The position numbers were made by a program, and so were the translations under genes. Below, one piece after another: positions 8,766-21,325 of a stretch of 64,000 bases of DNA. The stretch lies in the NCBI GenBank assembly GCA_037176845.1, contig JAYKXP010000205.1, positions 1 through 64,000 of the forward strand, read 5' to 3'. The stretch is from Paramarasmius palmivorus (lineage: Eukaryota; Basidiomycota; Agaricomycetes; Agaricales; Marasmiaceae). The notes beneath the pieces were generated by a model. It worked only from the letters and a program-made list of their open reading frames with translations, was not told the origin of the DNA and ran no database searches. Numbering within the stretch: position 1 is the stretch's first letter; every line of letters starts with the position of its first letter.

Positions 8766-9273
8766 TTAATTGGCTGGTATCTGTTGTCGTATTGCATAAT
8801 AACGTTCAAGAGCCTGTGCCTCGACTTGAGCTTCAGCCTATAGAAAGTTGTACGAGATGATGGTCAGATATTGTCCTAAACTCCGGTTGAACTGACCAGA
8901 ATTTGCCGCCAAATCTTCCCCCCTTCCCAATGTATCGCAAAAGGCTCTTTCCACCGTTTCCAAAGAAAGAAACCAACATATTCCTTCCACGATGCATTAT
9001 CCATAGAATAACGCATATACTTGAAGTCATGAATGCGCTTCTTGAGTCTGGGAAATTACTCTGAGGTTAGGTAAACACAATGTAACTGGAAGAGTACCGA
9101 GAGACAGCTTCCTCGAAGCGACGTTTCGAACGCAGACGGGCGTTCTCGTGCTGATCGACAATGAGATCACCCAAACCGATGACTAGGGAGTCCAGCCGAG
9201 TAAAGGATGTATATGCACGAATCCACCTCATAATGGAAATACAGAGAATGGCGGCCAAGAGTTCAGGTAGCAT
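8766..9273 (-). CDS. Small membrane protein, array copy A (unknown family)
   Basis: Three exons fit the family pattern: 9098-9273, 8897-9047 (151 nt) and 8766-8837, giving 132 residues with splice phases 2 and 0. Exon 1 holds a short hydrophobic segment (LLAAILCISI), then RLDSLVIGLGDLIVDQ. Exon 2 holds the family signature YSMDNASWKEYV followed by LWKRWKEPFAIHWEGGKI. Exon 3 begins AEAQVEAQALERYYA, a short charged helix. The N-terminus is about 20 residues shorter than in copies C and E. Its ATG lies about 10 bp from a kinase-gene fragment that starts on the other strand, so the 5' end may have been lost by rearrangement. The copia element ends 194 bp beyond its stop. Function unknown; I know no matching domain. 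Confidence 0.7.
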
Positions 9274-9282
9274 CCGAGTCGT

Positions 9283-9610
9283 AGAAAATTTCGAATACTA
9301 CGTGGTCGGCTATCATCCTGTACAGATCGGTGGTGTTTTCGATGAAGGGAGACACGCGTTAAGAAACTTGGAAGGGGGAATTTTGGTACTGTCTTGTTGG
9401 TTACTGATGTCAAGTGCGTTCCTTTTTTCTCCCTCAGGCGTAAGCTGACTCTCAAAAAAGACCCAACCGAAACGTAGCCCTGGAAGTCATTACATCCGCA
9501 CCAGGGTACCCCGAAACAACTCTCGACGAGGTCAAACTCTGACAAAGGCTCGCTTCTTCGGATACTAGATCCTACAGAACCCCGTCCAGAGGGAACCTCA
9601 TCAACGTTCA
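9283..9610 (+). pseudogene. Fragment of an SRPK-type kinase gene
   Basis: The segment is recognisably related to the first exons of the intact kinase at 17425. [18 protein letters not shown] here matches [18 protein letters not shown] there. After an intron-like gap, NVALEVITSAPGYPETTLDE matches the kinase [20 protein letters not shown]. The glycine-rich loop is scrambled by small indels and the frame breaks soon after 9610. No catalytic loop is present. It sits between array copies A and B on the opposite strand, so part of the kinase neighbourhood was copied into the array. It cannot encode a kinase. Confidence 0.8.
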
Positions 9611-17424: not shown

Positions 17425-19577
17425 ATGTCTCACTACCCATCCAAATCGTCTTCATCCAACCAATCAACAACGACAACCTGGGACACGCAAACACAATACT
17501 CTTCTCCTTCCGCTGAATCATTCGTTACAGAAGACGAAGAAGATCTCGAAGACTACGTCGTTGGAGGCTACCATCCCGTTCAAATCGGTGATGTTTTCAA
17601 TGAAGGCAGATACGAAGTCGTACGGAAGCTTGGATGGGGGCATTTTAGTACTGTTTGGTTGGTTAAGGATACAAAGTGCGTCGCCTGCTCTTCCATTGGG
17701 TGTAATCTGACGTATGCTAGATCCGACCGACACGTAGCCCTCAAAATCGTCAAATCTGCACCTAGATACACAGAAACAGCTCTCGATGAAATCAAGCTCT
17801 TGCAAAAACTAGCCAATTCGGACGATCCAGCCAACCCCCATCCAGGCAAAACACACGTTATCGATTTTCTCGATCATTTTCAACATAAAGGGCCTAACGG
17901 TACACACGTTTGCATGGTATTCGAGGTACTCGGCGAGAACCTGTTGGCGTACGTCCCCGCTTCCCCCTGCCTTCTCCGCCAACAATCCTAACCTCACGAC
18001 AGCCTCATCCGCCGACATCAATCCCAAGGCGTACCCCTCCCCCTAGTCAAACAAATCGCCAAACAAGTCTTGGAAGGTCTAGATTACATGCACCGAATCT
18101 GCGGTGTCATACACACAGACCTCAAACCCGAAAACATACTCATATCTATACCGAACGTCGAAGACCTCATACGGGCGGAATTGCAGGTGTCGGCGTCGGC
18201 TACTACGACGAGGTTGGTTGGTGTACCGCCTTCCAAGGGTGTGTGTTCCTTGACTCCGTACCACTGCTTGCGCTGACGATGGTATAGGAAGAGGAGGCAA
18301 CCAAACACCACGTTCAGTCTCAATAACTGGTTCACAACCACTTCCGTCCCCATCTTCGAGTAGCTCAAGTCTCGCAAGCATGTTTGGCGCCGCAGGCGGT
18401 GGAGGCGGAGGAAGTCTTAGCGAACGATACGGATTCGGCATGTCCAAGATCACTTCTTCTACCGTCGACGAGGGGTTGAGTAAAGGTGTTGGGTCGGTGT
18501 CTCTTGGCGATGGAGGCGGCGGGGTTGAGTTTGGTAAGAAAGGTAAAGGAAAGGGGAAAGCAGGTGGAGGTTCTGGGGGAGGCGGGGGACCGAGTTTGTT
18601 GACGCAGCAAGCGCCGAAGGACAAAGAGGTGGAGGAAAAGGAGAAGGAGGAGATGCAGAAAGAGATCCAACAAGGCGTCGTTGAGGAAGATCTACGTATC
18701 ACGGTTAAAATCGCCGACTTGGGTAACGGTACGCTCCCTACCTTTCCATTACCCCCTGTTCCCCCACGAAAACGCTTACGCGCAAACAGCAACATGGACA
18801 ACCCACCACTTCACAGACGATATCCAAACACGTCAATACCGATGTCCGGAGGTTATCCTAGGTGCGAAATGGGGTACTAGTGCGGATATTTGGAGTTTAT
18901 GTTGTTTAGTGCGTGCCCTTCCGCTTACTCTTCCCTTTCTTCTACGCCCCCTTCCCCTTTCGCACCCCTTCCTACCCCCGAAAGAGCCACGATGCTAAAG
19001 CACCGACAGCTCTTCGAACTCCTAACAGGCGGCGACTACCTCTTCGACCCCGCCTCTGGCACCAAATACTCAAAGGACGACGACCACCTCGCGCAGATCA
19101 TCGAACTATGCGGTCCGCTCCCTCGGGCGGTTGTTCAGGGGGGACGGTGGAGTGGGGAGTTTTTTACACGACGCGGTGCGCCTCCTTTTCGTTTTCTCTG
19201 CCCCAAAAAGAAAGCTAATGGGGTGGTGCGGGTAGGGGAATTGAGGAGGATAAACAAACTGAGGTATTGGCCTTTGGGAGCGGTGTTGAGTGAGAAATAT
19301 ATGATGCCGAAGGAAGAGGCGGATAAGTTGGCGGGGTTTTTGGGGGGGATGTTGGAGTGCGTGTCTCCCTTTCTTTTCTCTTCTGTGTCTTCTCTTTTGC
19401 TCTGTTTTTTTCGCTTTTTTCGTGTTTCGTTCGTTTTGAGTTTTCGGTTGAGACGGCGTTGGAGTGCAAGGGTGCTGATGAAGACGCATAAACAGGTTAA
19501 ACCCCGAAAAACGACCCAGTGCGGCTGAGATGCTGAGGATTGGGATGGGTGAGGGGGGGTGGTTGGTTGGTGTTTAG
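17425..19577 (+). CDS. SRPK-type serine/threonine protein kinase
   Basis: Predicted to phosphorylate Ser-Arg-rich splicing or RNA-transport proteins, as SRPK/Sky1 kinases do. Eight exons (17425-17675, 17721-17948, 18003-18238, 18288-18728, 18790-18908, 19010-19175, 19236-19356, 19496-19577) join to 547 residues without a stop. An SRPK-like entry segment [18 protein letters not shown] leads into the glycine loop [12 protein letters not shown] (about residues 69-80), the ATP-binding Lys in [10 protein letters not shown], the SRPK-style catalytic loop [12 protein letters not shown] (about 195-206), DLGN in place of DFG, and [21 protein letters not shown] roughly 130-residue Ser/Gly-rich, then Lys/Glu-rich insert separates the catalytic loop from DLGN, the place of the SRPK spacer. 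The C-terminus after RPSAAEML reads [12 protein letters not shown] rather than the usual HPWL-type helix, so the last exon may be misjudged or altered. A decayed fragment of a relative lies at 9283. Confidence 0.85.
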
Positions 19578-20817
19578 CCGTTGTGGTTTTGGTATGGTTT
19601 TTGTTGTCTGTGTGGTTTTCGGTGGTGTTGGGTTTCGGCGTTGGTTGGTGTTGGGCGATGGGAGTGGTGAGGAAGGCACGGGGAAGAGGAGAGAAAAGAG
19701 TGGTAAACACAATACCTGATAATAGCGAGATACCCTGTGTAGGATAGGATAGTATAGGCGAGGAACGAGGAGATTGTTTCTGGAATGGAGTTGGGTGTCG
19801 TCGCGATGTTGGGCGTAGGGGGAGATGAACACGAGTGCGGGATGGCAATTATAATCATCGAGTGAACACCTGAAAACGAAGCTAGGAATTCTCGCCACAT
19901 TACTCTAATCGATGCCGAATAGAATCGTTGAGAACCGTTACTCACAGGACGCCTATGGACGTGAGGCAGAACGTAATGCTTTCAGGACATTTCGTTGATG
20001 AGAAGTCAAAACGGTTGATGTGGGAGTACGGTTTAGAAGATCTTCATTGGGTTTACTTTATACCTCCAACCGCACCATTCTTCTTTGAACCGGGACCCTG
20101 ATAAGCGAGGAACGAAGAACAGGACCAGGGGTGTAGTCGGTTGATCGATCTTTCTTACTATAACGATGCGCTAGATAGGTTTATTCGGAAAATACGACGA
20201 AAGAATACAGGGCGGGAGAATGAAAGTCACGGTTTAGAACAACTTCGCTGTCTTCATGCCTCCTAAGCCGTCGAATAGAGGCTTGCACGATTCATCTTCT
20301 AGATTTAGCTGGATAATTAGATAGGCGATGATGCGTGGTGTACGTTTGGCGGCGCTTCAAATTTTTATGGTGCGGAGTGGCTCGCCGCCTGTAGATGATG
20401 GAGTACATAGCTAGTAATCTCGCGGCGTGTCATCGCTTTGTGGAATTAAAGAGAAGCCTTATCAGTGATGCGGTTGATTACACGCTTCCGGGACTAGAGC
20501 TTTTCTCTCGATCTGCGCATACCGGTGCCATTGTGCGGTACTCCAAACCCATTCCAAGTTTAGCGCCCATTCAAAAGCGCTGAGAACTGTGATTTCACGA
20601 GTGACCATCGTGGGCGCACAGTTACTATAAAAGTTCAAAACGATAAACTCTGTATAGGGCAGTCAATTACACACCGGTAAGGTTGATGCGAGAGCACATC
20701 GGTTAGAGGTGGCTTTACCGAAGACAGTATTATAAAAGTTATGGTTTAGAAGAAGCTATACAATGTCTTAATGCCTCCTACTGTATCTCATCATAAGAAG
20801 CCATCGCATACATTGGA
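19578..20817. other. Spacer with partial duplicates of copy F's leader
   Basis: No gene seen. Around 20230-20310 the sequence (CACGGTTTAGAACAACTTCG..., ATGCCTCCTAAGCC, GAGGCTTGCACGATTC) resembles the leader and first codons of copy F (20735-20845). A weaker match is near 20028. These look like broken extra copies of the 5' end of the small-protein gene. Confidence 0.4.
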
Positions 20818-21325
20818 ATGGAGGCTTGCACGTCTACGACAGCCTTCACAATCCTTTTTCTAGCTGTTTCGGTGGTACCTGCTTTGAAATGGCTCTTCTC
20901 GTACATCTCTGTCGAACAATTGGAAACTGTCATCTCCGAAGTGCGCACTATCATGAACGTTAACGATCAGTGCGTACGCTTTGGGGCTCAGATAACTCGG
21001 TATGCTGGTCTTACCGCCCACGATATGAATCTTGACTGATGATGGGTTCAAAGGCTTGAAAAACGTCTATCGCGATTCAAGTATCTTCGATACTCCATTG
21101 ATAATACTTCAAGGATGGCATACATCTACTTTTACCTCTGGATCTGGTGGAGTGAACCTGTTTTGTTGCGTTGGAAGATAGGAAAAGTCAAACATGGTAT
21201 ATTGGTATGTCACGATGACGTTTTTCTGCGTGTACTGGGCTTTATCGTAGCATTAGGCTGAGATTGAGTTGGAGAAAGGGGCACTTGATGCTTATCGAAG
21301 GAATCGACGTCGTAGGAACGCATGA
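20818..21325 (+). CDS. Small membrane protein, copy F (unknown family, opposite strand)
   Basis: The sixth family member lies outside the array on the plus strand. Exons 20818-20999, 21054-21204 (151 nt, same length as in A, B, C and E) and 21257-21325 join in phases 2 and 0 to 133 residues. Exon 1: hydrophobic helix (FTILFLAVSVVPALKWL) then YISVEQLETVISEVRTI. Exon 2: RFKYLRYSIDNTSRMAYIYF, LWIWWSEPVLLRWKIGKV. Exon 3: AEIELEKGALDAYRRN followed by an Arg run. The Trp of the A/N-S-W position is Arg here and KEP is SEP, so it is the most divergent copy. Conservation of exon lengths and phases despite low protein identity argues for a real, old gene family. It ends 86 bp before the convergent transporter gene. 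Confidence 0.8.

Follow-up and report, generated by a model that had tools for sequence, protein, structure and literature searches.

The DNA analysed here, referred to below as the window, comprises bases 1-64000 of the 69,947-base contig C205 from the genome assembly (68.3 Mb, 393 contigs) of Paramarasmius palmivorus, a tropical mushroom of the Marasmiaceae (Agaricales). Between positions 8766 and 21325 the window carries six related genes, copies A to F, which are predicted to encode small membrane proteins of a family that, judged from sequence searches, appears to be undescribed. Copies A to E lie in tandem on the minus strand (8766-15169), and copy F lies on the plus strand (20818-21325). 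The coordinates of these genes and of the associated features are collected in Table 1.

Table 1. Genes and other features of the array region in the window.
Feature	Position	Strand	Details
Copy A	8766-9273	-	exons 9098-9273, 8897-9047 (151 nt), 8766-8837; 132 aa
Copy B	10654-11249	-	exons 11005-11249, 10802-10952 (151 nt), 10654-10752; 164 aa
Copy C	11685-12261	-	exons 12035-12261, 11835-11985 (151 nt), 11685-11780; 157 aa
Copy D	12731-13286	-	altered; phases 0/0; exons 13089-13286, 12892-13014 (123 nt), 12731-12838
Copy E	14577-15169	-	exons 14946-15169, 14746-14896 (151 nt), 14577-14684; 160 aa; VNI00_018014
Copy F	20818-21325	+	exons 20818-20999, 21054-21204 (151 nt), 21257-21325; 133 aa
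Segment 3' of E, piece of duplication unit	14300-14500	-	6 genome matches, on C205 and C34 only
SRPK-like protein kinase gene between E and F	17400-19500	+	Pkinase match 17992-18270; remainder read by eye
Diverged SRPK-like kinase 5' fragment, abuts copy A start codon	9277-9663	+	alignment score 272 versus a maximum of 71 in 30 shuffles
Block collinear with C34:521296-538214	16316-33184	.	identity from 87% (16 kb) up to 100% (28-33 kb)

Gene models were obtained by enumerating three-exon splicings, with both intron phases left free and only intron and exon lengths limited, and were ranked with a profile that was itself built from the array's own gene models. For five of the six genes (A, B, C, E and F), the top model had phases 2 and 0 and an exon 2 of 151 nt. 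A six-frame profile search of the window gave three best matches of 98.5-101.8 bits, while the controls (the reversed window, three triplet-shuffled windows and the 22-64 kb part of the window) scored 6.9 bits or less. Local pairwise protein identity among A to F was 29-57%, with D represented by its alternative model. We conclude that the kinship of the six genes is far above chance. The original prediction, which placed six related genes here, is thereby upheld; the fixed gene structure that it described holds for A, B, C, E and F but not for D.

Genome searches were conducted with four protein queries: copies C and F, copy H2 of a second contig, C34, and a paralog on contig C60. All four converged on the same three places, namely C205, C34:498-526 kb and C60:226.8-227.3 kb; a C128 match, seen with one query at E 4.7, was taken as chance. 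Exon 2 was located at eleven places on C34 versus six in the window. Of the C34 copies, eight (H1, H2, H3, H5, H7, H8, H10 and H11) gave full models with an exon 2 of 151 nt and phases 2/0, H10 at 203 bits, which brings the number of array genes with this three-exon structure to 13 (five in the window and eight on C34). H9 resembles D, H4 had no family-like model (best 45.5 bits, with other phases), H6 is a remnant, and another exon-3-like remnant piece lies at C34 513.5 kb. The C60 gene, as represented by a hand-made model, aligned to the family with an hhalign probability of 99.0 (E 2.5e-18), which identifies it, at the level of sequence, as a true but distant relative; its central block was identical across all models printed.

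Since the 14300-14500 segment is found solely at the arrays, it belongs to the unit that was duplicated. A conserved RNA or mobile element at this repeat was considered and rejected, since nothing in window 8-22 kb passed the Rfam gathering cut-off. No shared promoter motif was seen, as none of the 8-mers recurred in at least six of the 14 upstream regions compared.

C34 shares a collinear block with the window (Table 1), and the final 2,214 bases of this 538,214-base contig match window 30971-33184 at 100%. The alignment identifies the C34 array as allelic to the window array and not as a separate locus. When identity between the two was followed kilobase by kilobase towards the array, it fell from 1.000 (28-30 kb) through 0.996-0.998 (26-27 kb), 0.98-0.99 (24-25 kb) and 0.92-0.97 (20-23 kb) to 0.87-0.95 (16-19 kb), on the array side. 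Thus, the array locus is far more divergent between the two haplotypes than its right flank, and we regard this divergence as the most interesting new fact in the present work. The gradient describes the right flank in two haplotypes of one assembly, C205 beginning 8.8 kb left of copy A. Three samples of heterozygosity taken elsewhere were too few and too uneven to give a genome-wide baseline: C34:476001-479000 had no second copy on another contig; a C60 stretch had relatives at 70-88%, which may be alleles or paralogs; and window 52764-54763 was repeat-rich, with a ca. 235-base repeated element that has dozens of matches on many contigs at 81-97% (40 of 66 candidates scored).

Gene content is rearranged inside the array, with copies absent, extra or swapped between haplotypes. 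Protein trees, one built without H10 and one repeated with H10 and without C60, paired A with H3, B with H5, C with H8, D with H9, E with H7, and F with H11. By position (right of D in the window, right of H9 on C34), E corresponds to H10, yet its identity is 84% with H7 against 58% with H10. Bins of E coding DNA were likewise nearer to H7, while one flanking bin on each side was nearer to H10 (H10 versus H7: 0.82 versus 0.74 upstream and 0.91 versus 0.84 downstream); the remaining flanking bins tied or favoured H7. Non-allelic exchange or unequal crossing-over would be the simplest reading of this out-of-place pairing. The earlier description of the family as expanding is in part borne out by these data, in that the copy sets differ between the haplotypes and remnants are present.

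One explanation of the divergence is that the array is a recognition locus, whose copies or copy sets would serve as somatic incompatibility or immunity specificities, kept divergent by balancing selection and acting through mismatched pairing at the membrane. Divergence that peaks at the array and drops to zero within ca. 10 kb rightward speaks for it, as does the differing gene content, and a metagenome fragment described below adds a third divergent version. Mating-type linkage offers no explanation at the contig level: STE3 matches lie on C22, C100 and C64 and Homeobox_KN matches on C5 and C6, with none of either on C205, C34 or C60, and linkage of the array to mating type was rejected accordingly. 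The contigs with STE3 and homeodomain matches are likely mating loci, perhaps including two B haplotypes, and STE3 on both C22 and C100 would fit a dikaryon in which divergent regions entered the assembly twice. In a 2021 paper, the mechanisms of basidiomycete somatic incompatibility are said to "remain completely unknown" (PMC8229728), and fungal het alleles are described as tending toward marks of balancing selection (PMC10197012). On the other side, the divergence comes from one assembly and its right flank; the same peak would also arise from hitchhiking, from introgression or if a rearranged region paired poorly; and neither a HET nor a NACHT domain was found in the nearby open reading frames (ORFs) scanned, which are part of all ORFs; of 32 stop-to-stop ORFs of at least 150 aa, 24 were scanned against Pfam. 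We consider a recognition locus unlikely. Its narrower form, in which the array of a dikaryotic mushroom would be a polymorphic self/non-self locus and one of the determinants of somatic incompatibility in basidiomycetes, made of membrane-anchored helical proteins that lack HET, NLR and mating-type domains and with copy sets that differ between nuclei, appears distinctly improbable to us. Should the divergence prove general in populations, the array would become a concrete candidate for basidiomycete somatic non-self recognition.

Three window copies are altered. Similarity between copy A and C34 breaks off at 9274, adjacent to the ATG at 9273, and the intron 2 donor of A is GTCAGT. A blastn search of 9275-10600 against the kinase gave nothing; local alignment then matched 9277-9663 to the 5' part of the kinase gene (17532-17917), of which it is a diverged copy with gaps that break the frame. 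Read together, these sequences indicate that copy A lost its original 5' end at a rearrangement breakpoint, its frame being still open. The kinase fragment, which adjoins the start of copy A, is a candidate source of its promoter. The best model of copy D has phases 0/0 and a 123-nt exon 2, as has that of its allele H9 on C34, and because the two are alike in this, the change is a common one and not a sequencing error. In D, moreover, a Phe replaces the Tyr of the conserved Y-x-x-D block. Copy F has SRMAY in place of the SWTTY of its allele, with the loss of one conserved Trp, and its N-terminus is shorter than that of the allele, whose upstream start is out of frame in F. Since A, D and F are all altered, the sound copies of the window haplotype are B, C and E. 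The altered state of A and F had been absent from the original description, which was drawn from a single sequence and so had no view of the C34 array or of its allelism.

Eleven aligned proteins, including the C60 paralog in its hand-made model, shared eleven invariant columns, among them Y107, D110, F120, W123, W126, P129 and G137. The block Y-x-x-D ... F-x-x-W-x-x-W-x-x-P ... G is present in all 11 aligned members and also in A, B, C, E and F. The highest-scoring N-terminal stretch of 19 residues had a mean Kyte-Doolittle hydropathy of 1.36-2.21 in 11 of 11 proteins and reached 1.6 in nine, which makes the predicted membrane association plausible, with a reservation for the other two that is taken up below. 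The same N-terminal segment, together with the tandem arrangement and the confinement to one lineage so far, would also fit a secreted or surface family, its helix cleaved or anchored in type II orientation, that acts on the substrate, a plant or neighbours. However, each of the 11 proteins has one to four Cys, the Arg/Glu-rich C-terminus is long, and the conserved aromatic block would suit a membrane surface, and a secreted or surface role is, in our estimate, rather unlikely.

Pfam scans of five proteins gave three weak matches, all under the printed cut-offs. With 11 members, nine families appeared at E of 1 or less, the best at E 0.014 (cut-offs were printed for member 1 only); these hints, UTP15_C (0.014, two members), Nucleoporin2 (0.053), Atypical_Card (0.11) and others (one member each), were set aside as too weak. 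In NCBIfam, for which cut-offs were not printed, there were six weak matches, each to one of 11 members, and the best two, PRK10800 (E 0.0048) and QacE (E 0.0062), were judged chance. A sequence-profile search of PDB gave one match, centromere protein U at E 0.97, which is not significant, and a further search gave none. No description of the family was found in the accessible parts of the literature on the species, its genome or lineage-specific Agaricomycete families. The earlier statement that no known domain fits agrees with the Pfam scans, which contained no significant family.

When 5.8 billion proteins were searched with profiles, the yield was one metagenome fragment and three proteins, all of the latter from P. 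palmivorus. The three are family members, deposited singly as hypothetical proteins under names that convey neither family, array nor function: VNI00_018014 (P0004) equals the copy E model letter for letter, VNI00_009399 (P0003) is H7, and VNI00_009400 (P0001) is H8 starting at an internal Met. The metagenome fragment reads through an A-type first exon without splicing. It is ca. 81% identical to A and to H3 alike, which implies that a third divergent version exists elsewhere. The protein search samples exact words and misses exact members: with E in the query it failed to return P0004, and another search missed P0001, P0003 and P0004 although their sequences were in the query. The deposited members therefore number at least three, failure to find the family in other fungi is weak evidence of absence, and restriction of the family to the P. 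palmivorus lineage is unproven. P0003 and P0004 bear the UniRef name "ATP synthase F0 subunit 8", which could suggest an organellar membrane subunit. We give this very little credence, for none of the 11 members scanned at E 1 matched an ATP synthase family of Pfam, a tandem expansion that differs between haplotypes is ill-suited to a subunit of a complex, and the name looks to us like automatic labelling.

To judge constraint, ratios of nonsynonymous to synonymous substitution rates (dN/dS) were estimated for 13 pairs, which did not include H10. The ratio was below 0.5 in all 10 computable pairs: 0.38 for A, 0.29 for B, 0.48 for C, 0.28 for E/H7 and 0.27 for F among alleles, and 0.25-0.28 in the five of eight paralog pairs with computable dS, the other three being saturated. 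Ratios of the corresponding proportions (pN/pS) were 0.30-0.48 for alleles and 0.35 when pooled (Fisher p 3e-13), with p below 0.005 in four of the five allele pairs. In alleles pN/pS was lowest in the LDxL helix (LDxLxxDI; 0.18) and the AGKLRR segment (0.19), and in paralogs in the WK...EP block (0.32), while the linker, the hydrophobic helix and the N-terminus were loosest. None of eight segments exceeded 1. The proposed check for positive selection between copies revealed purifying selection instead, although segment averages could hide a few sites. The family was also said to be old and under diversification; its age is supported by a paralog dS that runs from 1.0 to saturated, and diversification is not supported by the ratios above.

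The pooled ratio implies working genes under constraint. Accordingly, it is highly improbable that the array is decaying or non-functional, with ORFs that are open by chance: A, D, F, H4, H6 and H9 are indeed altered, broken or remnants, but the thirteen full array copies share their phases and the pooled allelic signal is strong. Purifying selection, seen as dN/dS below 0.5 in every computable pair and as values below 1 in every segment, also counts against a recognition locus, for which it creates no need.

The arrays most likely hold a birth-and-death family of single-anchor helical membrane adaptors. Birth and death is suggested by H4, which lacks a family-like model, by the H6 and 513.5-kb remnants, and by the pairing of E with H7 instead of H10. 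In the mechanism that we propose, the N-terminal hydrophobic helix would be the membrane anchor; a helical stalk or hairpin would be built from the LDxLxxDIxxLI and RLKxRVS segments; the block YSIDxASWKxYIxFFxWxxWKEPxxIxWxAGK, aromatic and interrupted by proline, would make a second contact by resting on the same membrane; and the C-terminal helix (AEAEVExxALExxRALRRR), which is charged, would pair with a partner or with fellow family members. The products would then serve as membrane-bound adaptors or scaffolds, diversity being reached through many paralogs and not through fast change of any one. Topology, oligomerisation and the adaptor role are all read from the protein sequences. As a whole, this account, a single-anchor family spread by tandem duplication, pruned by loss, held at a haplotype-divergent locus and working as membrane adaptors or scaffolds, is put forward tentatively, at somewhat less than even odds.

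Several observations weigh against it. The hydrophobic window falls below the usual cut of 1.6 in A (1.44) and C (1.36), and a peripheral or cleaved N-terminus is possible given these two values. A second, weaker hydrophobic stretch (0.2-1.3) overlaps the aromatic block in eight of the 11 proteins (not in A, C and H3), and the charges that flank the hydrophobic stretch indicate no clear topology. Among 266 C60 models, the hand-made one, with a 154-nt exon 2 and phases 2/0, takes 21st place at 71.4 versus 81.6 bits, and the top models have other phases, which leaves the exon structure of this paralog uncertain. Among allele pairs, C/H8 alone falls short of significance for purifying selection (p 0.15). 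Finally, an adaptor role would be the default reading of a protein of this shape.

Some neighbouring features were recorded as well. Two UstYa-family ORFs (PF11807; window 42380-42967 and 45046-45753, minus strand; E 6.6e-17 and 7.4e-10) may possibly belong to a small cluster for a ribosomally synthesized and post-translationally modified peptide or another secondary metabolite. A Copia-type gag ORF (PF14223; 7072-8319, plus strand) lies left of copy A, and on C34 the left side of the array holds a Tc5-type transposase (L031:5711-8394). A PADLOC scan gave two weak matches, which were set aside.

The family can be compared with two known systems. HeLo/HET-S and fungal NLR-associated death domains, as presented in PMC10197012, carry an N-terminal transmembrane-prone helix before a helical region, and the proteins described here are predicted to do likewise; the likeness is one of sequence features. 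They differ in that Pfam, run on 11 members at E 1, yielded no such domain and no NLR was found in the neighbouring ORFs scanned.

The second system is wtf, the meiotic-drive family of fission yeast, which, according to PMC6526906, is multi-copy and variable between isolates, with non-allelic gene conversion, pseudogenes and predicted transmembrane domains. The comparison was made by description. The array is similarly variable in copy number, with decayed copies, a predicted membrane helix and, in E/H7, an out-of-place pairing, all of which would fit a killer family that works like wtf. In the same paper, most wtf genes are given five or six exons, and the driver poison start is placed near exon 2. 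The array genes have three exons and one clear hydrophobic helix, and wtf membership was rejected on exon number; in copies A, B, C, E and F, no in-frame Met occurs within the first ten residues of exon 2, though A carries one at residue 11; and all computable pairs are under purifying selection. Meiotic drive of this type is therefore very unlikely here. We conclude that the protein family appears to be undescribed, while its kind, a tandem family evolving by birth and death within one lineage, is already known.

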